In this document: positions 1 through 18,895 of the stretch, in pieces | Layout: every line of letters begins with the position of its first letter | Numbering within the stretch: the stretch's first letter is position 1 | DNA from: Solirubrobacterales bacterium | GTDB lineage: Bacteria > Actinomycetota > Thermoleophilia > Solirubrobacterales > 70-9 | Direction: 5' to 3' | Assembly: GCA_035573435.1 (NCBI GenBank) | Contig: DATMZR010000041.1 | Coordinates: 1-47,207 of the forward strand | Length of the DNA: 47,207 bases | The notes under the pieces: model-generated | Told to the model about the DNA's origin: nothing | What the model saw: only the letters and a program-made list of their open reading frames with translations | Databases searched by the model: none | Translations under genes and position numbers: made by a program

Positions 1-1
1 T

Positions 2-37
2 GACAAAGCCCTCGAAGCCGCCGGGCTGCGGGAGTAG
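2..37 (+). CDS. 3' end of a SnoaL-like protein (partial)
   Basis: The first bases read in frame as DKALEAAGLRE followed by TAG. This nearly matches the C-terminus of the next gene (EQALETAGLSE), and the same GCG spacer precedes the next ATG. It is therefore the tail of an upstream paralogue in a tandem SnoaL-like array. Only eleven codons are visible, so nothing more can be said about function. Confidence 0.6.
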   Translation, partial: DKALEAAGLRE

Positions 38-40
38 GCG

Positions 41-457
41 ATGTCGCAGGAGAACGTGGAGATCGTGCGGACGTTGGCAGAGGGTTTCCAGCACCGCCAG
101 CACGAGCGGGCGTTCGAGTTCTACGACCCCGAGATCGAATGGGATGCGTCGCGGGTTGTGGGGGTGCTTCCGGATAGCGCGGGCGTCTACCACGGCCACG
201 AGGGGGTCAGGGCGTTCTGGCGGACCTGGCTCTCGGCGTGGAGCGATCTCCGGTTCGAGATCCAGGACGTGGTGGACGCGGGCGACGACGTTGTGCTGCT
301 GATCCGCAACCAGCGGCAATGGGGACGCCACAGCGGCCTTGAGACGGAGTTCCCGTCCTACGCGATGGTCTTCACGTTTCGTGACGGGAAGGTGATCCGC
401 CAGCGGCACTATCTCGACCAGGAACAAGCCCTCGAAACCGCCGGGCTCTCGGAGTAG
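41..457 (+). CDS. SnoaL-like / NTF2-fold family protein
   Basis: A 138-residue protein with the pattern of the SnoaL-like branch of the NTF2 superfamily. The N-terminus (MSQENVEIVR) is followed by a helical segment with FYDPEIEWD, then YHGHEGVRAFWRTW near residues 50–63 and a C-terminal strand ending FRDGKVIRQRHYLD. These proteins form a cone-shaped alpha+beta barrel and may be small-molecule isomerases, hydrolases or binding proteins; no specific substrate can be read here. It lies 3 nt after an upstream paralogue and 3 nt before a truncated one. The GGAG at the end of each gene doubles as the Shine-Dalgarno of the next, so the array is probably translated as one message. Confidence 0.85.
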   Translation: MSQENVEIVRTLAEGFQHRQHERAFEFYDPEIEWDASRVVGVLPDSAGVYHGHEGVRAFWRTWLSAWSDLRFEIQDVVDAGDDVVLLIRNQRQWGRHSGLETEFPSYAMVFTFRDGKVIRQRHYLDQEQALETAGLSE

Positions 458-460
458 GCG

Positions 461-625
461 ATGTCGCAGGAGAACGTGGAGATCGTGCGGGCGCTCAACG
501 ACGCCTTCAATCGCGGTGACGCCGCCACGGCGGGGCAATGGATCGACCCGGAGATCGAGGTCGAGACCTGGACGGCCTTGGGGGCAGCGCGGATCTGCGT
601 CGATGTGCGCGGATGTGCGCGCTAA
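461..625 (+). pseudogene. truncated SnoaL-like gene, cut off by a repeat
   Basis: The ATG and first codons (MSQENVEIVRAL) are nearly identical to the preceding SnoaL-like gene, and about 43 residues look genuine (through DPEIEVETWTALG). The frame then enters the 10-bp direct repeats at 591 and stops at the TAA inside the hairpin arm (623–625). The result is a 54-residue product lacking about 85 residues of the fold, so it is almost certainly non-functional. It marks the point where repeat copy A inserted or recombined. Confidence 0.75.
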
Positions 626-657
626 CGGGCACCAGAGCGGCGCTGGTGCCCGTTAGC
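591..657 (+). repeat. interspersed repeat copy A (decamers + hairpin, no tRNA part)
   Basis: Three 10-bp direct units (GGATCTGCGT, CGATGTGCGC, GGATGTGCGC; 591–620) are followed by a perfect 15-bp inverted repeat: GCTAACGGGCACCAG at 621–635, a 7-nt loop, and its complement at 643–657. The same arrangement occurs at 2677–2753, 3283–3344 and 5241–5317, always in this orientation. Those copies carry a tRNA-Val fragment on the left; this one lacks it and instead abuts a broken SnoaL-like gene. The hairpin has no U-tract and is unlikely to be an ordinary terminator. Confidence 0.85.
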
Positions 658-736
658 CCGGCGGGCTCCGAGTGCCGACCGGCTTCCGCTCGTTGCCCGC
701 GCGATCGAGGGGCCATGCCTGCTTTCGGAAATGACG

Positions 737-765
737 TTGACCGCCCGCAGCTCCGGTGGTAGGTT
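737..765 (+). promoter_or_regulatory. sigma70-type promoter of the RCC1-repeat gene
   Basis: TTGACC at 737–742 and TAGGTT at 760–765 are separated by exactly 17 bp. The same boxes and spacing, with closely similar flanks, occur at 5398–5426 ahead of the second secreted repeat protein. The conservation in two places and the ideal spacing support a real housekeeping-type promoter. It lies 35 nt before the GTG chosen as the start, which rules out the longer reading frame that begins at 731 inside the promoter. Confidence 0.7.
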
Positions 766-799
766 CGGCCAGAAGGCCAACGCGGGGAGAGGAGTGAGC

Positions 800-2572
800 G
801 TGGAGAGGGCGAAGGTCGGGGCGAAGCGGACCCGGCGGCGGATTCCCGTCAAGGGCCGTCTTGCTCCTCGCCGGCTTGGCCCCTGCACCGCGATCGCCAT
901 CGGAGCCGCCCTCTTGCTCCTGGGTCTCGCCGCTCCGGCCTCCGCCGCAGCCCCGCCGACCGGAACCGGAGGGACCTCGATCGCCACCGCCCCGCCCGGG
1001 GCGGCGGCCGGGAGCGTGAGCGCCGGCAGCGACCACACCTGCGGCGTGAGGATGAACGGCGCCGTCGCCTGCTGGGGCGACAACGGCCGGGGCGAGGCGA
1101 GCCCGCCTCCGGGCAGCTTCACTGCGGTGAGCGCCGGCGGCCAACACACCTGCGGCCTAAGGACGAACGGGACCGCCGCCTGCTGGGGCGACAACGGCTG
1201 GGGTGAGACCACCCCGCCCTCGGGCAGCTTCACCGCGGTGGACGCTGGCGGCGACCACAGCTGCGGGGTGAGGACGAACGGGACCGTCGCCTGCTGGGGC
1301 TACAACCTCAATGGCCAGGCCACCCCGCCCGCGGGCAGCTTCACCGCGGTGAGCGCTGGCTTGAATCACAGCTGCGGGATGAGGACGAGCGGCGCCGTGG
1401 CCTGCTGGGGCTGGAACGACTACGGCCAGGCCACCCCGCCCACGGGCACCTTCACCGCCGTCAGCGCCGGCAGCGCCCACAGCTGCGGGGTGAGGACGAA
1501 CGGGACCGTCGCCTGCTGGGGCGACAACCTCGAGGGCCAGGCGAGCCCGCCCGCGGGCACCTTCACTGCGGTCAGCGCCGGCGCCAACCACACCTGCGGC
1601 CTAAGGACGAACGGGACCGCCGCCTGCTGGGGCTACAACCTCAAGGGCCAGACCATCCCGCCCGCGGGCACCTTCACCGCGGTGAGCGCCGGCGGCTACC
1701 ACAGCTGCGGGGTGAGGCCGAATGGCGCCGTCGCCTGCTGGGGCGGCACCGGCAAGGGCCAGGCCACCCCGCCCGCGGGCACCTTCGACGGCCCCGCAGT
1801 CGAGGCAGGAGACCAGTTCACCTGCGGCGTGGAGCACGTTGGCACCCTCGCCTGCTGGGGCTCGAACTCCTTGGCCCAGACAACCCCGCCCGCGGGCACC
1901 TTCACGGCGGTGACCGCAGGCGGCCTCCATGCCTGCGGGCTACGCACGGTCGGCACCATCGCTTGCTGGGGCGCCAACGGCAGCGGCCAGGCCAGCCCGC
2001 CCGCGGGCACCTTCACGGCGGTGAGCGCCGGCGCCTACCACAGCTGTGGAGTGAGGACGGATAGCGCGGTCGCGTGCTGGGGTCGCAACAACTTCGGCCA
2101 GGCGACTCCGCCGGCGGGCACCTTCACCGCGGTGAGCGCGGGCAACGGCCACAACTGCGGAGTGAGGACGGACGGCACAATCGGCTGCTGGGGCACCAAC
2201 AGCAGCGGCCAGGCGACTCCGCCGGGGGGCACCTTCTCCGCGGTGAGCGCGGGCAACGGCCACAACTGCGGCGTGAAGACGGACGGAACTCTCGCCTGCT
2301 GGGGCCGCAACGACTTCGGCCAGGCGACTCCGCCCGCGGGCACCTTCACGGCGGTGAGCGGGGGCGCCGCCCACACCTGCGGCCTACGCACCAACGGCAC
2401 GCTCGCCTGCTGGGGCCGTAACAGCTCCGGCCAGGCGACTCCGCCCGGAGGGAACTTCACAGCCCTGTCCGCCGGGGGCGACCACACCTGTGGGATGAGG
2501 ACCGACGGCACTGCCGTCTGCTGGGGCAAGAACACGAGCGGCGAGGCCACCACCCCACCTGGCTTCGGCTAA
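800..2572 (+). CDS. secreted RCC1-repeat beta-propeller protein
   Basis: A 590-residue exported protein. A basic N-terminus precedes a hydrophobic segment (GAALLLLGLAAPASAAA) that reads as a signal peptide ending near residue 48. Fourteen tandem units of about 37 residues follow, each with the pattern AVSAG..H.CG.RTNG...CWG.N..GQATPPAGTFT. This is the RCC1-like repeat, and fourteen units would make two seven-bladed propellers. The conserved CG and CWG cysteines of every unit could form disulfides outside the cell. The GTG start is preceded by a GGGGAGAGGAG-like Shine-Dalgarno and parallels the start of the gene at 5464. Function is unknown; such propellers usually bind proteins or polysaccharides. 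Confidence 0.9.
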   Translation: MERAKVGAKRTRRRIPVKGRLAPRRLGPCTAIAIGAALLLLGLAAPASAAAPPTGTGGTSIATAPPGAAAGSVSAGSDHTCGVRMNGAVACWGDNGRGEASPPPGSFTAVSAGGQHTCGLRTNGTAACWGDNGWGETTPPSGSFTAVDAGGDHSCGVRTNGTVACWGYNLNGQATPPAGSFTAVSAGLNHSCGMRTSGAVACWGWNDYGQATPPTGTFTAVSAGSAHSCGVRTNGTVACWGDNLEGQASPPAGTFTAVSAGANHTCGLRTNGTAACWGYNLKGQTIPPAGTFTAVSAGGYHSCGVRPNGAVACWGGTGKGQATPPAGTFDGPAVEAGDQFTCGVEHVGTLACWGSNSLAQTTPPAGTFTAVTAGGLHACGLRTVGTIACWGANGSGQASPPAGTFTAVSAGAYHSCGVRTDSAVACWGRNNFGQATPPAGTFTAVSAGNGHNCGVRTDGTIGCWGTNSSGQATPPGGTFSAVSAGNGHNCGVKTDGTLACWGRNDFGQATPPAGTFTAVSGGAAHTCGLRTNGTLACWGRNSSGQATPPGGNFTALSAGGDHTCGMRTDGTAVCWGKNTSGEATTPPGFG

Positions 2573-2590: not shown

Positions 2591-2753
2591 GATGGGCGCG
2601 GCTGGTTTCGAACCAGCGACCTCTCGCGTGTGAAGCGGTGACACCTCAGGCACGGATGGGCGTCGTTGCGCGCATCGGATGTGCGCGGATATGCGTGGAT
2701 ATGCGCGGATGTGCGCGCTAACGGGCACCAGAACGGCTCTGGTACCCATTGGC
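2591..2753 (-). repeat. tRNA-Val-derived composite repeat, copy B
   Basis: Bases 2591–2637 match 6774–6820, the 3' 45 nt of the intact tRNA-Val plus 2 nt beyond, over 47 bp. The match breaks inside the anticodon stem. A linker with CCTCAGGCACGGATGGGCG follows, then four 10-bp units (2677–2716) and an imperfect hairpin (2717–2753, two mismatches). It is in the same orientation as the tRNA and as copies C and D. The T-arm and anticodon loop are intact, but the 5' half of the tRNA is missing, so this is not a functional tRNA gene. Confidence 0.85.
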
Positions 2754-2768
2754 CGTAACGTTGACCTC

Positions 2769-3098
2769 GTGCGCATCTGGGACCTCGAGCCGGACGTTCT
2801 CTGCGATCGCCACCTGCTTGGCGAACACCGTGAGCTCCACGCCGTGTGGTCGATTCTCACCGCCGGCAAGCGCGGCTATGCCAACCATCCGGAGACGCTG
2901 CGCTGGCGCGGAAGGCTCAAGGCCCTATACGTGCGACACGACGGGCTGGTCGAGGAGATGAAACGCCGCGGGTTTGACCACCGCAGTCCGCTCGATCCCG
3001 CTCTCGCGACCGGGGCGATCCGTCAAACCGAGCTGCTCGAAAGCGTGGAGCGTCAGCGGGAACGGCTCCGCCTCCGCGATTGTTCCTGCTTTTCATGA
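2769..3098 (+). CDS. pyrimidine-dimer DNA glycosylase/AP lyase family protein (DenV-like)
   Basis: A 109-residue protein whose N-terminus (VRIWDLEPDVLCDRHLLGEHRELHAVW) matches the bacterial branch of the T4 endonuclease V (DenV) family. In T4 DenV the N-terminal amine starts base excision at thymine dimers, and Arg22 and Glu23 are key active-site residues. The corresponding H15, R21 and E22 are present here in HLLGEHREL. Later family features include HPETLRWRGRLKALYVRH and EEMKRRGFDHRSPLD. The GTG start at 2769 puts the conserved RIWDL at the extreme N-terminus, as the mechanism needs. It lies directly after repeat copy B and probably protects against UV damage. Substrate specificity is inferred from the family only. 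Confidence 0.85.
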   Translation: MRIWDLEPDVLCDRHLLGEHRELHAVWSILTAGKRGYANHPETLRWRGRLKALYVRHDGLVEEMKRRGFDHRSPLDPALATGAIRQTELLESVERQRERLRLRDCSCFS

Positions 3099-3121
3099 GC
3101 GGGTAGGCCACCGTGGGTGGG

Positions 3122-3177
3122 GATGGGCGCGGCTGGTTTCGAGTGAGCCCGGAGGGCGAGCGGGTGAGAAACCAGCC
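3122..3177. repeat. partial tRNA-Val fragment forming a long inverted repeat
   Basis: GATGGGCGCGG followed by CTGGTTTCGA at 3122–3142 repeats the 3' end of tRNA-Val (acceptor strand and half of the T-arm). Instead of completing the T-arm, 27 nt intervene before GAAACCAGCC at 3168–3177, which is the exact complement of GGCTGGTTTC at 3131–3140. It looks like a broken or rearranged copy of the tRNA fragment next to copy C. No gene is seen between 3099 and 3448; the stretch is filled by this element, copy C and about 100 bp without recognisable features. Confidence 0.6.
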
Positions 3178-3195
3178 CCGACACCGGTCATGAAG

Positions 3196-3344
3196 GATGG
3201 GCGCGGCTGGTTTCGAACCAGCGACCTCTCGCGTGTGAAGCGGTGGTCCCTCAGGCACGGATGGGCACCGCTCAGTCCGTCGGGATGTGCGTCGATGTGC
3301 GCGGATGTGCGCGCTAACGGGCACCAGAACCGCGCTGGTGCCCG
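3196..3344 (-). repeat. tRNA-Val-derived composite repeat, copy C
   Basis: Bases 3196–3242 match the same 47 bp of tRNA-Val found in copy B. The linker (CCTCAGGCACGGATGGGC) follows, then three 10-bp units (3283–3312) and a hairpin whose 10-bp core CGGGCACCAG (3318–3327) pairs with CTGGTGCCCG (3335–3344). The three bases after the tRNA fragment differ from B and D, while CCTCAGGCAC is constant. No promoter-like boxes follow the hairpin, unlike copies A and D. Confidence 0.85.
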
Positions 3345-3448
3345 ATCACTCGGTGGCGGTGGGTGCTACTCCGCAGCCCGGCGGCTTCGAGGGCGGCGGG
3401 CGCCGCTTCGCTCGCTTCCCAATTGCTCTCGCCGATTCGGGCCTACGG

Positions 3449-4084
3449 CTAGACAGTCCAGCTTCTGAGGTGCTTGGCCGCGGTGCCGTTGTTTCCGAGT
3501 TGATACACGCTCAGTCCAGCCGGGGAGAAGGTGAATGGGTCGAACGGCTCCGCTTCGATCTCCTCCAGATCATCTAGCTTCGCAAGGCCGACGGTGACGT
3601 GCGCGATGAACTTCGATCCGCTGTGGTCGGGCACGTAGGCCTCGATGTATCCGATCGTCTGGTCGTTGATCTCGGGCTCGGCCTCGGTGCGGACGTAGGC
3701 GTCGGCCGTACCACCGCTCTCGGTGAACGGCTTCACCGCCTCGATCAGGCGCGCCTGCAGATCGAGGACCTCCGGCCCCGGCTGCACGACGATCCCGGTC
3801 AGCCCGAGGCCGGGTGCGGTGTCCATGTGCGCGAGCTTCACCCCGGTCAGCTGGAGCTTGCCGACGTCGACCTCATCGACAATCTGCCCGACGGCGTCGA
3901 AGACCTCGTCGAGATCCGCCGTTCGCACATAGCGTTGGAGGGTGGTGATGTGGGGCTGGTGATGCTCGTCGAGGGCGAAGCCGTCGGGGTAGCTCGCGCG
4001 CATCGTCTCGTTGGCAGCCTTCGCCCGCGACATCATCGTCTGGTCGGGGTCGATCAGGATGTCGATCGCGGTCAGGTCTCCCAT
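3449..4084 (-). CDS. 2H phosphoesterase family protein (2'-5' RNA ligase-like)
   Basis: A 211-residue protein with the two HxTx-type motifs of the 2H phosphoesterase superfamily, HITT at 45–48 and HVTV at 162–165, separated by the usual distance for two pseudo-symmetric lobes. Members hydrolyse or form 2'-5' or cyclic phosphodiester bonds in RNA or nucleotides; which of these applies cannot be told. The start ATG is 2 nt after the stop of the tyrosine-phosphatase-like gene, so the two are probably translationally coupled. The pair lies between tRNA-fragment repeats C and D, which suggests accessory cargo. Confidence 0.8.
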   Translation of the reverse strand: MGDLTAIDILIDPDQTMMSRAKAANETMRASYPDGFALDEHHQPHITTLQRYVRTADLDEVFDAVGQIVDEVDVGKLQLTGVKLAHMDTAPGLGLTGIVVQPGPEVLDLQARLIEAVKPFTESGGTADAYVRTEAEPEINDQTIGYIEAYVPDHSGSKFIAHVTVGLAKLDDLEEIEAEPFDPFTFSPAGLSVYQLGNNGTAAKHLRSWTV

Positions 4085-4086
4085 CG

Positions 4087-4896
4087 CTAGCTTGCCTCAG
4101 TAAAGGTCGTCCGCAGGTTGTCGATCGTCGCCGAGTCGAGTCCCAGGCCGTCGGCGAAATAGCGGTCGATGTCCCCATACTTCGAGTTCATCTCGGCGAT
4201 CGCTGCGTCGAGGTACTCCTCCTGGACTCCGAGCACCGGGGCCAGGACCGCCGGATCACCGCCGAGCGAGGCGAAGTGGTCACTGACGGGCTTGGTCATC
4301 GGCAGGAGCTGCTCGTTGGTGAGCATGAAGTCGGCGAACACATCCTCGCGGCTTACTCCCAGCAGCAGGAGCAACGACGCCGCCGCCCAGCCGGTGCGGT
4401 CCTTGCCGGTGGTGCAGTGAAACAGCGCCGGCCGGTGCTCGGGGTTCGCGATCTGCTCGAAGAACTGCTTATAGCCGGCGCGCGCGCTCGGGAGGTCGAT
4501 CATCTCGCGGTAGCTGCCCTGGAACAGACTCAAGGCCTTGCCACCGCCGAGTGCCTGCTCGGCTGCCGGCGGATCGTCGATGACCTTCAGCAGCATCGCC
4601 GGGGCGGCATCGGTGGAGTCGGCGAGGATGTCGATCGCGACGTACTCAACTCCGCCGGGCACGACGTTCGGCTGCGCCGCGCGCTCGGCCTCGGTGCGGA
4701 AGTCATAGACGGAGCTGATACCGAGCTTGGCGAATGCGGATGCGTCTGCTCCTCCGAGGTTCGCGAACTCGGCTGAGCGATAGATCAGGCCGGATCGCAC
4801 CTTGCCGTCCGGGGTCGGCCATCCGCCGAGGTCGCGTAGGTTCGGGATCGTCGCGATCGAGATGCTTTGACCGGGCTCTGTGATTGGCGACACCAT
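4087..4896 (-). CDS. tyrosine/serine protein phosphatase (MptpB/SIW14-like)
   Basis: A cysteine phosphatase with the P-loop HCTTGKDRTG (C-x5-R) and the N-terminal NLRDLGGW and FRTEAERA motifs of the Y_phosphatase3 family, which includes mycobacterial PtpB. A cytoplasmic phosphatase acting on phosphotyrosine, phosphoserine or a phosphoinositide-like substrate is expected. The start is uncertain. A TTG at 4923, an ATG at 4896 and a GTG at 4893 share one frame, and AAAGGGGAG lies just before the last two, so the 4893/4896 region is preferred. It leads a two-gene operon with the 2H phosphoesterase. Confidence 0.85.
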   Translation of the reverse strand: MVSPITEPGQSISIATIPNLRDLGGWPTPDGKVRSGLIYRSAEFANLGGADASAFAKLGISSVYDFRTEAERAAQPNVVPGGVEYVAIDILADSTDAAPAMLLKVIDDPPAAEQALGGGKALSLFQGSYREMIDLPSARAGYKQFFEQIANPEHRPALFHCTTGKDRTGWAAASLLLLLGVSREDVFADFMLTNEQLLPMTKPVSDHFASLGGDPAVLAPVLGVQEEYLDAAIAEMNSKYGDIDRYFADGLGLDSATIDNLRTTFTEAS

Positions 4897-5006
4897 CTCC
4901 CCTTTCTCGTGTCCGGAGGTCAAGCCCGGGTCGCGGCGCTCGACCCGAGCCGGGTGTTCGCCCGCACCCTAGCGGCGAGCCCGCATTGGTTGTGGCGCCC
5001 TCAACA

Positions 5007-5042
5007 CCTACGGATCAGGCAAGTCCTACGGATTAGGCAAGT
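5007..5042. repeat. 18-bp tandem duplication
   Basis: CCTACGGATCAGGCAAGT at 5007–5024 is followed directly by CCTACGGATTAGGCAAGT at 5025–5042, with one mismatch. It lies in the 540-bp gene-free stretch 4924–5463. That stretch also holds a short GCCCG–ATAG–CGGGC–TTTT hairpin at 5134–5151 (a weak terminator candidate on the plus strand), repeat copy D and a promoter. No coding potential is convincing there. Confidence 0.7.
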
Positions 5043-5155
5043 CGCACTTTGGACGATGTGGAGGAGTGCGGCTTTCGCGTGAAGCGAGAGCCTGGTTGAG
5101 CGGTTGATCGATGGTCGACAGGGCCTGAACGCGGCCCGATAGCGGGCTTTTGCGC

Positions 5156-5317
5156 ATGGGCGCGGCTGGTTTCGAACCAGCGACCTCTCGCGTGTGAAGC
5201 GGTGTTCCCTCAGGCACGGATGGGCGTCGTTACGCGCATCGGATGTGCGCGGATGTGCGTCGATGTGCGCGGATGTGCGCCCTATCGGGCACCAGAACCC
5301 GGCTGGTACCCGTTAGC
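5156..5317 (-). repeat. tRNA-Val-derived composite repeat, copy D
   Basis: Bases 5156–5201 match the tRNA-Val 3' portion over 46 bp. The CCTCAGGCACGGATGGGCG linker, four 10-bp units (5241–5280) and a hairpin follow (core CGGGCACCAG 5286–5295 with CTGGTACCCG 5303–5312, one mismatch). From the hairpin to the downstream GTG start the sequence is homologous to the stretch after copy A, including the promoter boxes. It is the copy nearest the intact tRNA gene, 1.6 kb away. Confidence 0.85.
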
Positions 5318-5397
5318 GCAGGCGACCCCGGGCGAGCCGCTTTCGGCTCGTCTCGCCGGTGCACGGGCGGTGCCATGCCCGCTTCCGGATGAAGACG

Positions 5398-5426
5398 TTG
5401 ACCACCCCGGCCTCCGGTGGTAGGTT
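5398..5426 (+). promoter_or_regulatory. sigma70-type promoter of the delta-60 repeat gene
   Basis: TTGACC at 5398–5403 and TAGGTT at 5421–5426 have a 17-bp spacer ending in CCTCCGGTGG. The copy at 737–765 ends in GCTCCGGTGG before the same TAGGTT. The two promoter regions are clearly duplicates, so the two secreted propeller proteins are probably expressed together. Confidence 0.7.
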
Positions 5427-5463
5427 CGTGCGGAAGCCCGCGGAGTAGGGGAGAGGAGCGAGC

Positions 5464-6729
5464 GTGGAGAGACCGCAGACCGTGCGGACGCCGACAGGAC
5501 GGCGGGTGGCTGCCCTGGGCTCCCTGGCGGTAGTGCTCCTACTTGGCGCAGTGGTGGCAGCGCCGGCACAAGCCGCCGCCGGCGACCCCGACCCGACCTT
5601 CTCCGGAGACGGCAAGCTGAGAACCGACTTCGGCGCCTCGTTCAGCGTGGCGACGGCGGCCGTGCGCCAGGCGGACGGCAAGATCGTCGCGGTGGGAGGG
5701 GCCGATGGGAACTTCCTGGTGGCTCGCTACAACCTTGACGGCTCGTTCGACGCGAGCTTCTCCGGCGACGGCAGGGATCAGACCAACTTCACGGTCTCGG
5801 ACATCGCGACCGACGTGGCACTCCAGGGCAATAAGATCGTCGTCGTCGGGTTCAGCACGACCAACGATGGCGGCGACTTCGCGCTCGCCCGCTACAACCC
5901 GGACGGCTCCCTCGACCCGAACTTCTCGGGCGACGGCAAGCAGATGACCAACTTCGGGAGCGGCGACGGGGCGACCGGGGTGGCGCTCCAGGGCGGAAAG
6001 ATCGTCACGGTCGGCTTCGGCGGCAGCCTTCGCGACTTCGCGCTGGCCCGCTACAACTTGAACGGCTCGCTCGACACCAGCTTCTCCGGCGACGGCAAGC
6101 AGACAACCGACTTCGGGGGCTTCGACACGGCCACCGGGGTGGCCCTCCAGGGCGACGGCAAGATCGTCGCGGTCGGCAGCGCAGGCGGGGGTGCCACCAG
6201 CGATGACTTCGCGCTCGCCCGCTACAACCCGAACGGCTCGCTCGACACCAGCTTCTCCGGCGACGGCAAGCAGGCAACCGACTTCGGGGGCTCCGAAGGG
6301 GCGCAAGGAATGGCGCTCCAGACGGACGGCAGGATCGTCGCGGTCGGGAACAGCGGCGGCGGCGACTTCGGGCTCGCCCGCTACAACACCGACGGCTCGC
6401 TCGACGCGAGCTTCTCCGGGGACGGCTTGCAGACGACCGACTTCCTCTTCGGGGCCGACGACGTGGCGAACGACGTGGCCATCCAGGCGAACGGCAGGAT
6501 CGTCGCGGTCGGCAGTGCAGGCGGGGGCGCGACCGGTAATGACTTCGGGCTTGCCCGCTACAACACGAACGGATCGCTCGAGACGAGTTTCTCCGGGGAC
6601 GGCAGGAAGCGGACCGGGTTCGGCGGCTCCGACGGTGCGACCGGAGTGGCGCTCCAGGGCGACGGCAAGATCGTCGCGGCTGGCGTCGGCAACGGCGAGT
6701 TCGCGCTGGCTCGCTATCTCGGAGGCTGA
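5464..6729 (+). CDS. secreted delta-60 repeat (DUF5122-type) beta-propeller protein
   Basis: A 421-residue exported protein. The signal peptide has an RRVAALGSLAVVLLLGAVV core and a likely AQAAA cleavage region near residue 40. Seven units of 50–57 residues follow, each with D.SFSGDG..TDFGG, VALQ.DGKIVAVG and FALARYN. This is the delta-60 repeat, and seven units would close one seven-bladed propeller. The GTG start has GGGGAGAGGAG about 5 nt upstream. The gene follows repeat copy D and a promoter nearly identical to that of the RCC1-repeat gene. Its role is unknown; an extracellular or surface-binding function is inferred. It ends 46 bp before the tRNA-Val 3' end. Confidence 0.9.
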   Translation: MERPQTVRTPTGRRVAALGSLAVVLLLGAVVAAPAQAAAGDPDPTFSGDGKLRTDFGASFSVATAAVRQADGKIVAVGGADGNFLVARYNLDGSFDASFSGDGRDQTNFTVSDIATDVALQGNKIVVVGFSTTNDGGDFALARYNPDGSLDPNFSGDGKQMTNFGSGDGATGVALQGGKIVTVGFGGSLRDFALARYNLNGSLDTSFSGDGKQTTDFGGFDTATGVALQGDGKIVAVGSAGGGATSDDFALARYNPNGSLDTSFSGDGKQATDFGGSEGAQGMALQTDGRIVAVGNSGGGDFGLARYNTDGSLDASFSGDGLQTTDFLFGADDVANDVAIQANGRIVAVGSAGGGATGNDFGLARYNTNGSLETSFSGDGRKRTGFGGSDGATGVALQGDGKIVAAGVGNGEFALARYLGG

Positions 6730-6775
6730 GAACTCCTCCCGCCCTGACGGGGGAAGGGTGCAGGCACTTTGCGGA

Positions 6776-6847
6776 TGGGCGCGGCTGGTTTCGAACCAGC
6801 GACCTCTCGCGTGTGAAGCGAGCGCTCTCCCACTGAGCTACGCGCCC
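6776..6847 (-). tRNA. tRNA-Val (anticodon CAC)
   Basis: Read on the minus strand, 72 nt fold into a complete cloverleaf. The acceptor stem is GGGCGCG/CGCGCCC with discriminator A, the D-stem is GCUC/GAGC, and the anticodon stem CUCGC/GCGAG carries loop UUCACAC (anticodon CAC, reads GUG). A five-base variable loop precedes the T-arm GCUGG–UUCGAAA–CCAGC. No CCA is encoded. Its 3' portion is duplicated three times in the 4.2 kb beyond its 3' end, as expected of a tRNA gene used as an integration site. Confidence 0.97.
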
Positions 6848-7567: not shown

Positions 7568-7591
7568 CGAGGATAGGATGACCGCTGGACC

Positions 7592-7801
7592 GTGCTAGGC
7601 GGGGAGGTAGCGGTGCCCTGTCACCCGCAATCCGCTCTAGCGGGGCTGAATGCCCGTCCGAGGGTCGCGGCCTTCGGGGTCGGTACGTCGCGGGCGGCGT
7701 TGACGGCCAGGTCCCGCGCAATGTGCGCCCGCGAACCAGGTCAGATCCGGAAGGAAGCAGCCTTAAGCGGTAGCGGGCATGTGCCGCGGATATGCCTGGC
7801 T
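7592..7801 (+). ncRNA. ffs: signal recognition particle RNA
   Basis: The domain IV motif that binds Ffh is intact: GGTCAGATCCGG then AAGGAAGCAGC at 7739–7761. The 5' part contains GGTGCCCTGTCACCCGCAAT, typical of the Alu domain of long Gram-positive SRP RNAs. The ends pair: GCTAGGC at 7594–7600 with GCCTGGC at 7794–7800, so the RNA is about 210 nt; the exact ends are approximate. SRP RNA directly upstream of dnaX–ybaB–recR is common in Gram-positive bacteria. It works with Ffh in co-translational targeting of membrane proteins. Confidence 0.9.
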
Positions 7802-7866
7802 CGAGCCAGCCACGACGGGAACGCCCGGGGACTGCTCTCGAAGGCGGGCCGCACGGTCCTGCGCGC

Positions 7867-16483: not shown

Positions 16484-18895
16484 TTGCTAGGCGCCTACGC
16501 ATCCGTCACGGTGCTGATCGCCGGCTCGATCGCGGCGGGCCAGGCGATCCTCTCGTTGTGCGGCCGCCGCGAGTTCACGTGGCTCTCGGGGCCCGTTGGC
16601 CTGGCGGCCATCCTGGTCGTGAGCGGGATCGCGATCCGGCTGCCGGGGCACGGGACCGCGGTGGCGATCGCCCTGGCGGCCCTATTCGTCCTCTCAATTG
16701 CGAGCCTCGCAAGGCGAGGGCGAGTGCCGGATGGGGACCCGGCAAACGTCCGCAGCATGGACGCGAGGACGGTGCGATGCAGGGATGCAGAGCGTTTGTC
16801 GGGGGCGCATCCGGCGGTCGCCCTGATCGCGGCTGGGCTCGCGCTCCTCCTTGCCTCGATCCCGTTCATCGTCAACGGGCGGGTGGGGATCCTCGGCGTC
16901 GGGTTGATCAACGACGACATGGCCTCCCACCTGTTGATCGCGGACTGGCTGAACACGCGGGTTGGGCAAACGCCGGGCCTCGTGGAGGGCGGCTACCCGG
17001 TGGGGCCACACGCGCTGGCGGCCGGGCTCAGCGAGGGACTGGGGACTGGACTGATCGAAGCGTTCGCCGGCATCACGCTCGCCATCCCCGTGCTCACCGC
17101 GCTGCTCGCGTTCCAGGCGCTGCGCGACCTGCGACCTCTTGGCCGAATCCTCGTCGCGACGCTGGTGGCGCTTCCGTATCTCGCCGCCGCCTACCTGGCA
17201 CAGGGGGCGTTCAAGGAGCCGATCGAGGCCCTGTTCCTGCTCGGGTTCGCGCTCCTCTTGCCCGGTGCCACCACTGCCCGGCGCGGACTGCCGCTCGCGG
17301 TGATCGCCGCGGGCGCCGTCTACGCCTACAGCTTCCCGGGCCTCTTCTGGCTCCTGGGCGCGGCGGCGATCTACATAGCTGTGCGGCTGATCAGGGGAGC
17401 GCGCCCATGGTCGCTGGGCAGCGGGACCCGCCCGGCAGTGGTCTGGGGGGGAGCTGCGGCGGTGGCCGGGGCGCTCGTGATCCTGATCGCGCCCGACATC
17501 GGAAGGCTCGTCGACTTCACGGACTTCAGGGCCTTCCGCAACTCGACAATCTCGAGCGGGCTCGGCAACCTGCGCCATCAGCTCTCGCCGCTGGAGGCGC
17601 TGGGGATCTGGCCGGCAAGCGACTTCCGGCTCTCGGCGAGCGCCGCCAGCGTGCCCGCGCCCGTCTTCTACCTCGCCGCGCTGGTGGCCGCGGTCGCATT
17701 GGCGGTCGCGTTGCCGCGCTGGCTACGCCGCCACGGCGAGGCGGTGCCCGCCGCGCTGGCCGCGGCGATCGTCATCTACCTCGGGGCGCTCGCCTTTGGA
17801 ACGGTCTACACCAGCGCCAAGGCCCTGGCGATCGCCGCCCCCGTCATTACGCTCATCACCTTCGGCGGCCTGCTGGGCCACGAGCGCGCGGAGAGCACAC
17901 GCTCGCTGCGCTCCTGGCGCCCCGGGCTCGCGCTGGCACTTGCGGCGGGCATCGCGCTGTCCAGCTTCCTGGTCCTGCGCCAGGCTCCCGTCGCCCCCGA
18001 TGATCACGCCGATCAGCTGGCAGAGCTGCGGCCGCTGGTTCAGGGGAGAAAGGTCCTGTTCCTCGGCCGCGACAACTTCATCTCCTACGAACTGCGGGGC
18101 TCGCGGCCGTTCACGGCCGTGCGCAACTACTACGACCCCAACTACGTCCGGCCCAACCTGCGGCTCAAGGACGTGTTCCGGAAGTTCGACTTCGATTCGG
18201 TGGCCGCGGCGAAGCTGGGGCGCTTCCCGTACGTGATCACGACCCGGGCCCCGTACGCCAGCGGACCGCCCCCTGCCTTCGAGCCACTCCGCGCGACCAA
18301 GGACTTCGTGCTCTGGAGGAGGACGGAACCGGTGGGGCAGCGGCGCACCTTGGACGAGGCGGACCGGCCCGGTGCCCCGCTCGATTGCTCGAGCCGGGAT
18401 GGACGGCGCTTGAGGCGAAGCGGCGGCACGTCAACCGTGTTCGCGGCGCCACCTGTGATCGGCGGTGCCTGGTCGCCGAGCTCCACGGTGGAGAGCGGGT
18501 CCGTCGCCTCCTTGTCGTTGAAGCTGTCGCCGGGCCGCTGGTGGGTCTCGATCCAGTACGACTCCACCAGGGCGCTTCAGATCCGCGCGCCGGGGATGGA
18601 TGCGACCGTGCCGGCGAATCTCGATTACCGGGGCTCGGTCCCGTTCTATGCCGCGGGCGACCTCACCGTCCAGCGCCGCGGCCCGATTCAGTTCACGGTC
18701 AGCGTCGAGCGACCGCCCATTGCGGGTCGCCTGCTCGGCGTCCACTCGGTGGCACATCTGGGGACCATCGCCGCCACGGCCGCCGCGGGCGGTCATCCGG
18801 GCGGGCCGATGCCCGGCTTGGGCGAGCAGGCCATCCCGCTCCGCCGCGCCTGCGATCGCTACGTAGACTGGTACCGGCCGCGGGGCGGCGGCTGA
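16484..18895 (+). CDS. large polytopic membrane protein with extracytoplasmic C-terminal domain
   Basis: An 803-residue protein. The first 500 residues hold about a dozen hydrophobic helices, with a soluble loop near 90–110 and the motif NDDMASHLLIADWLN after the fourth helix. Acidic residues in the first outer loop of a multi-helix protein are typical of GT-C glycosyltransferases, so lipid-linked sugar transfer is possible but not established. The last 300 residues look soluble and beta-rich (LSLKLSPGRWWVSIQYDS). The TTG start has TACGAT 8 nt upstream and no Shine-Dalgarno. A single-gene unit between asd and the antiporter. Confidence 0.75.
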   Translation: MLGAYASVTVLIAGSIAAGQAILSLCGRREFTWLSGPVGLAAILVVSGIAIRLPGHGTAVAIALAALFVLSIASLARRGRVPDGDPANVRSMDARTVRCRDAERLSGAHPAVALIAAGLALLLASIPFIVNGRVGILGVGLINDDMASHLLIADWLNTRVGQTPGLVEGGYPVGPHALAAGLSEGLGTGLIEAFAGITLAIPVLTALLAFQALRDLRPLGRILVATLVALPYLAAAYLAQGAFKEPIEALFLLGFALLLPGATTARRGLPLAVIAAGAVYAYSFPGLFWLLGAAAIYIAVRLIRGARPWSLGSGTRPAVVWGGAAAVAGALVILIAPDIGRLVDFTDFRAFRNSTISSGLGNLRHQLSPLEALGIWPASDFRLSASAASVPAPVFYLAALVAAVALAVALPRWLRRHGEAVPAALAAAIVIYLGALAFGTVYTSAKALAIAAPVITLITFGGLLGHERAESTRSLRSWRPGLALALAAGIALSSFLVLRQAPVAPDDHADQLAELRPLVQGRKVLFLGRDNFISYELRGSRPFTAVRNYYDPNYVRPNLRLKDVFRKFDFDSVAAAKLGRFPYVITTRAPYASGPPPAFEPLRATKDFVLWRRTEPVGQRRTLDEADRPGAPLDCSSRDGRRLRRSGGTSTVFAAPPVIGGAWSPSSTVESGSVASLSLKLSPGRWWVSIQYDSTRALQIRAPGMDATVPANLDYRGSVPFYAAGDLTVQRRGPIQFTVSVERPPIAGRLLGVHSVAHLGTIAATAAAGGHPGGPMPGLGEQAIPLRRACDRYVDWYRPRGGG

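Follow-up and report, generated by a model that had tools for sequence, protein, structure and literature searches.

A tandem array of small modules bounded by tRNA-Val(CAC) fragments and a decamer-hairpin arm in a Solirubrobacterales bacterium

Tandem modules at the tRNA-Val(CAC) gene

The window analysed here, a 47,207-nt stretch of a Solirubrobacterales bacterium (GenBank assembly GCA_035573435.1), is the whole of one contig (DATMZR010000041.1, C41 below), and carries a series of small gene modules on the 3′ side of an intact tRNA-Val(CAC) gene, separated by direct repeats of the 3′ half of that gene. The arrangement is best explained by serial integrase-mediated insertion at tRNA-Val and subsequent loss of the integration genes, leaving tandem modules similar to cis-mobilizable elements (CIMEs), a reading to which we assign a probability of about 0.82. 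The tRNA gene and its repeated attachment (att) cores are located in the window as follows.

6776..6847, minus strand: intact tRNA-Val(CAC), predicted by ARAGORN; putative target gene (attB), regenerated at the junction nearest the tRNA
6775..6820, minus strand: 46-nt att core inside tRNA-Val(CAC), 3′ half through the anticodon loop, by sequence comparison
5156..5201, minus strand: module A, distal att core, matching tRNA-Val at 46/46 positions
3197..3242, minus strand: distal att core of module B, 46/46 identical to tRNA-Val 6775-6820
2592..2637, minus strand: distal att core of module C, 46/46 identical to tRNA-Val 6775-6820

The core reaches one base outside the tRNA-Val gene at one end and slightly past the anticodon loop at the other. 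An initial reading of the letters, referred to below as the sequence-only reading, had noticed three tRNA-Val 3′ fragments in the orientation of the tRNA and solely on its 3′ side, and this held without a mismatch at all three; two of the copies match by one extra G. When a 23-nt core probe was used with at most three mismatches, exactly four sites were obtained, compared with about 0.01 expected by chance. As for the repeat unit, the same reading was right about the fragment but missed its decamer and hairpin extension, as well as an orphan arm, a shorter scar, and a copy on contig C16, all described below.

The decamer and hairpin arm

Each core copy extends rightward by ca. 115 nt, first through the linker CCTCAGGCACGGATGGGC, then into three or four ten-bp direct repeats of the GGATGTGCGC/TCGATGTGCG type (decamers), and finally into a palindromic hairpin of the form GCTAACGGGCACCAG-n7-CTGGTGCCCGTTAGC with a 15-bp stem. 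The best hairpin copy gave a single-stranded DNA fold 5.3 standard deviations below shuffles.

5241..5280, plus strand: module A decamers, a set of four direct repeats of 10 bp each (GGATGTGCGC type), candidate arm sites for an integrase
5281..5317, plus strand: palindromic hairpin of module A (GGGCACCAG/CTGGTACCC), from sequence
3283..3349, plus strand: module B arm, with three decamers at 3283-3312 and a hairpin at 3313-3349
2677..2753, plus strand: module C arm, with four decamers at 2677-2716 and a hairpin at 2717-2753
591..657, plus strand: orphan arm of module D, decamers (591-620) and hairpin (621-657), tRNA core lost

The arm is probably one side of the attachment site of the element, i.e. 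an integrase arm site. Position, repetition and phasing (see below) make it likely that the decamers are the integrase arm sites proper, in which case they would most likely be bound by the N-terminal arm-binding domain of the integrase. For the hairpin we propose an accessory or structural site. An intrinsic terminator was not favoured, since no T-run follows the hairpin in the copies inspected. The orphan arm (587-657 overall) stands in front of the RCC1 gene, and recombination between scars, one of the options named in the sequence-only reading, is a plausible origin for its core-less state.

The arm family across the class

A covariance model made from six arms found copies in 24 of the 151 genomes of the order, and a model rebuilt from 31 matches identified the arm in 27 of the 249 genomes of the class. 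The arm that follows the scars consists of 2-4 decamers of the GATATGCG type and the palindromic hairpin, the loop of which is not conserved. In relatives, reversed 3′ fragments of various tRNAs were located upstream of the arms. When this association was judged by an explicit T-arm stem-loop test on 57 arms, a reversed T-arm in the expected orientation was present at 43, and none was found at the mirror (downstream) position (0/57), with random windows giving 478/11,400 (4%). Among the arms outside model building, 15 of 22 had the T-arm. The distance from T-arm to arm was mostly 107-121 or 130-132 nt, and 67-86 nt in the window genome. Core-to-arm distances were periodic near 10.7 bp, with a resultant length of 0.75 for 42 arms and 0.69 for the 15 distinct distances, a pattern that would follow if recombination required core and arm to lie on one face of the DNA helix; the Rayleigh statistics of this phasing are descriptive only, as the arms share descent and partly differ by whole decamers, and kinship was ignored.

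The exact junction of core and linker had no match in the other named genomes. A scan of viral contigs with the arm pattern, which is a narrow one, likewise returned no match, and a phage origin is thus unsupported. Two loci, L131 and L132 (G118:C63 and G130:C146), had arm-like decamers and a different hairpin (CCACTCGAGC..) upstream of an intact tRNA-Ala and not next to a tRNA fragment; an element with a complete tRNA gene on board, or promoter-proximal convergence, is a possible explanation.

Integrases and elements at tRNA genes of relatives

Altogether 50 tRNA-Val(CAC) loci from the window and its relatives were compared, a set enriched for loci already known to hold copies, and 10 of these had extra tRNA-Val fragments of at least 27 nt. 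All fragments were on the 3′ side and co-oriented with the tRNA, and none was on the 5′ side, where the control spanned only 2-4.5 kb for several of the repeat-bearing loci. Tyrosine integrase active-site motifs were identified ca. 280-300 nt from the tRNA-Val 3′ end in genomes G042, G003 (same genus), G021 and G060. In G042 the site is occupied by an intact 11-kb element in the order distal core, FtsK_SpoIIIE, RepSA (E-value 3e-136), integrase, tRNA-Val. With an integrase hidden Markov model (HMM) built from 14 seeds, integrase stumps were detected beside tRNA-Val in G011 (139 aa) and, twice, in G044 (148 aa). The succession from intact element to stump-bearing and stump-free intervals is the series that decay predicts; the stump-free class would also be expected of modules that were never autonomous.

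Array formation is not peculiar to the window locus, since the tRNA-Ala gene of the same-genus genome G001 bears a four-module array, in which four 3′ fragments on the 3′ side lie 1.7-4.6 kb apart and each is followed by an arm. No integrase was found in this array. At loci L068 (12483-14027) and L076 (87-755) integrase reading frames extend into the tRNA-Val 3′ end, so the attP of these elements shares sequence with the integrase gene terminus. At locus L061 (8330-8410, G044) the arm is directly followed, inside the element, by a degraded, tRNA-like stretch that has GTG as an anticodon-like triplet.

In the window itself, neither integrase nor Rep or FtsK-type Tra genes were found in the modules by Pfam and the integrase HMM, and the genome has only two Phage_integrase proteins, which by size and sequence are XerC and XerD; the sequence-only reading had already seen no integrase here. 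Its suggestion of serial insertion at a tRNA 3′ end is well supported by the adjacent integrases of relatives, the intact G042 element, the fragments lying only on the 3′ side and co-oriented, and the presence and absence of cargo.

Module cargo and neighbouring features

Modules A, B and C each lie between a distal core with its arm on one side and the next core or tRNA-Val on the other, and module D has lost its distal core. The modules are ca. 0.5-2 kb long, and one or two cargo genes in either orientation occupy nearly all of their space.

5464..6729, plus strand: module A, secreted DUF5122 (delta-60) beta-propeller protein of 421 aa (Pfam)
4087..4923, minus strand: module B, Y_phosphatase3 tyrosine phosphatase (Pfam)
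3449..4084, minus strand: module B, 2H / 2′-5′ RNA ligase-like protein (Pfam, 24.4 bits against a cut-off of 27, sub-threshold)
2679..3098, plus strand: module C, pyrimidine-dimer DNA glycosylase (Pyr_excise, DenV-like; Pfam)
731..2572, plus strand: module D, secreted RCC1-repeat protein of 613 aa (Pfam)
3122..3166, plus strand: second and shorter type of scar, in which the tRNA 3′ end breaks off in the T loop after 21 nt and 24 nt more are attached; matches a C16 scar at 45/45 positions

Gene calls made earlier from the letters alone (DenV-like glycosylase, phosphatase with 2H protein, delta-60 protein) were upheld by Pfam, the 2H protein below its cut-off. The Pyr_excise match begins at residue 31, and therefore the true start of this gene is probably after the module C arm. 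The glycosylase was present in two and the phosphatase in three of 61 genomes, own genome included.

An ARAGORN call of tRNA-Ala at 5690-5766 falls within the DUF5122 repeat gene and is probably spurious. Tandem SnoaL-like genes occupy window positions 1-560, with near-identical (93%) junctions at 6-73 and 426-493. A similar SnoaL-like C-terminus is found directly left of the outermost scar in the G001 tRNA-Ala array and of the tRNA-Ala scar in G005, and owing to this recurrence the sequence may be recurrent cargo. On the 5′ side of tRNA-Val, which is conserved in many relatives when the 3′ side is not, a bacterial large signal recognition particle RNA was identified at 7590-7856.

Further scars in the same genome

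In the 2.58 Mb genome the full composite of core and arm is confined to the window and a single site on contig C16, giving four full or near-full copies in total. On C16 (L026, 4191-7064) the composite unit is followed by the gene of an 862-aa DUF5122 protein and by a scar of the T-loop type, beyond which comes a variant arm made up of GATTACCGGG plus a GGGCAGAA/TTCTGCCC hairpin; a further scar without an arm is at 17440-17484. The pattern of the 3122-3166 scar had no other occurrence in the 61 genomes. The C16 module is 84% identical to module D in arm and leader (arm to promoter) and shares 73% identity with module A across 1.6 kb, so that either RCC1 or DUF5122 cargo can stand behind one and the same arm and leader end. 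Degenerate tRNA-Val cores were observed on C10 (L029, 2469-2514) and C29 (L028, 2373-2417), minus strand, and that on C10 is followed by a variant arm of GGATTACC-type repeats and the GGGCAGAA/TTCTGCCC hairpin. Several generations of tRNA-Val scars are thus present in the genome. The left end of C41 lies inside the array, and we infer that C10, C16 and C41 form one array.

Proposed history of the array

On this reading, the window would hold that part of a tandem series of decayed integrative elements which is nearest to the tRNA. In the proposed mechanism, a tyrosine integrase would recombine the attP of an element with the anticodon-loop/3′ half of tRNA-Val(CAC), and every insertion would rebuild the tRNA gene and displace the earlier 3′ half outward as a scar. 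Insertion may have been repeated at least three or four times, whereafter integrase, replication and transfer genes would have been lost, and the remaining CIME-like modules of one or two cargo genes, keeping both ends, could still be mobilised if the integrase of a related element acted on them in cis or in trans. We infer this order of events and the remaining mobility of the modules.

Several observations weigh against this history or limit its support. No integrase stump was detected by the HMM in the window modules, on C16 or in the G001 array, and the integrase-bearing ancestor of these very modules is therefore hypothetical. The arm/hairpin match in the intact G042 element was weak (16 bits, E-value 0.11), and 14 of the 57 arms were without a recognisable T-arm. 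Covariation in the hairpin (both members altered in 13 of 15 pairs; score 0.401, at most 0.126 for slid controls) counts in favour of this history, but was obtained from an alignment fitted to the hairpin structure. A search for an empty site with the C16 left flank against sibling genomes gave no similarity, and no strain-level empty site is to hand. Neither glycosylase nor phosphatase was found in the same-genus genomes G001-G003, an absence that speaks for the proposed history but is weak evidence as these are only 72-84% complete. Finally, the decamers could be a transfer or a replication site instead.

Alternative explanations

The modules might never have been autonomous, and could be integrase-less cassettes, small circles integrated in trans by the integrase of a co-resident element into an integron-like array at the tRNA. 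This would agree with their small size and nearly complete occupation by cargo, with four arm-bearing modules in succession in G001, with related arms serving different tRNAs, with the different cargo behind one arm and leader, and with the lack of integrase stumps in the window, C16, the G001 tRNA-Ala array and the short intervals of G025, G030, G020 and G023. However, the stumps and intact elements of relatives make up the expected decay series, neither a circular form nor an identical module at two sites was found, and the genome itself is without an integrase able to act in trans; moreover, integrase-less modules are not explained by cut-and-paste integration itself. We therefore hold the cassette explanation to be unlikely, and quite unlikely in its class-wide form, in which integrases of the actinomycete integrative and conjugative element (AICE) family would capture core, phased-decamer and hairpin modules in trans and stack them at tRNA genes.

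The second alternative concerns the arm, which could be a conjugation site, similar to the clt locus of AICEs, or a rolling-circle origin adjoining att in AICE-like elements. AICEs transfer as double-stranded DNA with short-repeat clt sites and replicate by the rolling-circle mode, and RepSA and FtsK are encoded in the G042 element. Yet a helically phased distance to the core across different tRNAs fits with arm-type integrase sites, and the hairpin loop is not conserved, unlike what is expected of a nick site. A transfer or replication origin is accordingly a doubtful identity for the arm.

Growth of the array by tandem duplication or RecA recombination of one original scar, instead of repeated insertion, would account for the identical cores and highly similar arms, for the arm, leader and cargo family in common between module A and the C16 module, and for the core-less orphan arm, which looks recombined. 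It is rendered improbable by cargo that is wholly different between modules B, C and A/D, by arms varying in decamer number and hairpin sequence, by the other scar type at 3122-3166, and by the same geometry at other tRNAs.

A tRNA-derived dispersed repeat (SINE-like, i.e. as short interspersed elements, or retro-copied), spreading apart from integration and lying by chance between genes, had been offered by the sequence-only reading as a mobile repeat, and would suit several near-identical copies in one region and a hairpin with direct repeats joined to a tRNA fragment, but it is effectively excluded by low copy number (one more full composite in the genome, beside related cargo, and not the hundreds of sites by which the same reading would have recognised such a repeat), by copies that lie without exception 3′ of their parent tRNA and share one orientation, by like arms fused at phased distance to fragments of different tRNAs, and by integrase elements at the same site.

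Comparison with known systems

The underlying process is already known, since parallels are seen in CIMEs, in the ssrA islands of Dehalococcoides and in actinobacteriophage att cores. CIMEs are stacked elements that have kept their att sites without integrase and transfer genes (Pavlovic 2004, in the summary given by PMC5704250). Those of the ICESt1-related tandem accretion in Streptococcus thermophilus have lost integration and transfer genes, retained attL and attR, and accumulated in tandem at one site. The window modules are likewise stacked at one site, an att site is present at both ends of A, B and C, and integrase and transfer genes are absent; relatives of the window array in turn show decay intermediates. 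As for derivation by deletion from an integrative and conjugative (ICE) or mobilizable (IME) element, stump-bearing intermediates are present in G011 and G044, and no relic was detected in the window. The window modules differ from CIMEs in having one or two genes, a common decamer and hairpin arm, a tRNA target, and an actinobacterial host.

According to passages of PMC3146451, the Dehalococcoides islands comprise over a dozen direct repeats of the ssrA 3′ end downstream of the RNA gene, separating accessory modules, with 15 islands lacking an integration module. They differ in that their recombinases are of the serine type, their repeat at ssrA has 20 bp and their integration module has six genes, and those passages report no decamer or hairpin arm. 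The module set of AICEs includes a tyrosine or serine integrase, Rep (RepSA, RepAM or PrimPol) and an FtsK-type Tra (PMC3218068). Elements of this pSAM2 type occur in tandem at tRNA genes, and the G042 tRNA-Val element has the set (integrase, RepSA and FtsK), none of which is carried by the window modules. For tyrosine integrases of actinobacteriophages, att cores of typically 30-45 bp over the tRNA 3′ half, and paired arm-type sites, are normal (PMC10865867).

The array resembles that of integron cassettes in its short cargo genes, each with a structured recombination site, whereas the genome has no IntI (only XerC/XerD-like proteins), the core is double-stranded tRNA sequence, the arms are direct repeats with a simple palindrome, and cargo lies in both orientations. 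Tycheposons are integrative elements that are also anchored at tRNAs, with partial tRNA repeats and variable cargo, and differ in host phylum and size.

In the literature, as covered by open-licence papers, neither a decamer and hairpin arm common to elements at different tRNAs nor arrays with modules this small were found described. Thus, the arm is apparently an undescribed attachment-site signature that recurs across the class.

Biological meaning

An odd tRNA repeat hereby becomes a searchable attachment-site signature, which marks gene gain in a poorly studied class of actinobacteria and covers elements without an integrase, of the kind that island finders keyed to integrases would miss. 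As one-sided arms are common to elements at different tRNAs, separate evolution of arm and core recognition becomes testable. If the modules prove to be movable in trans, they would constitute an integron-like system with a tRNA gene as its landing site.

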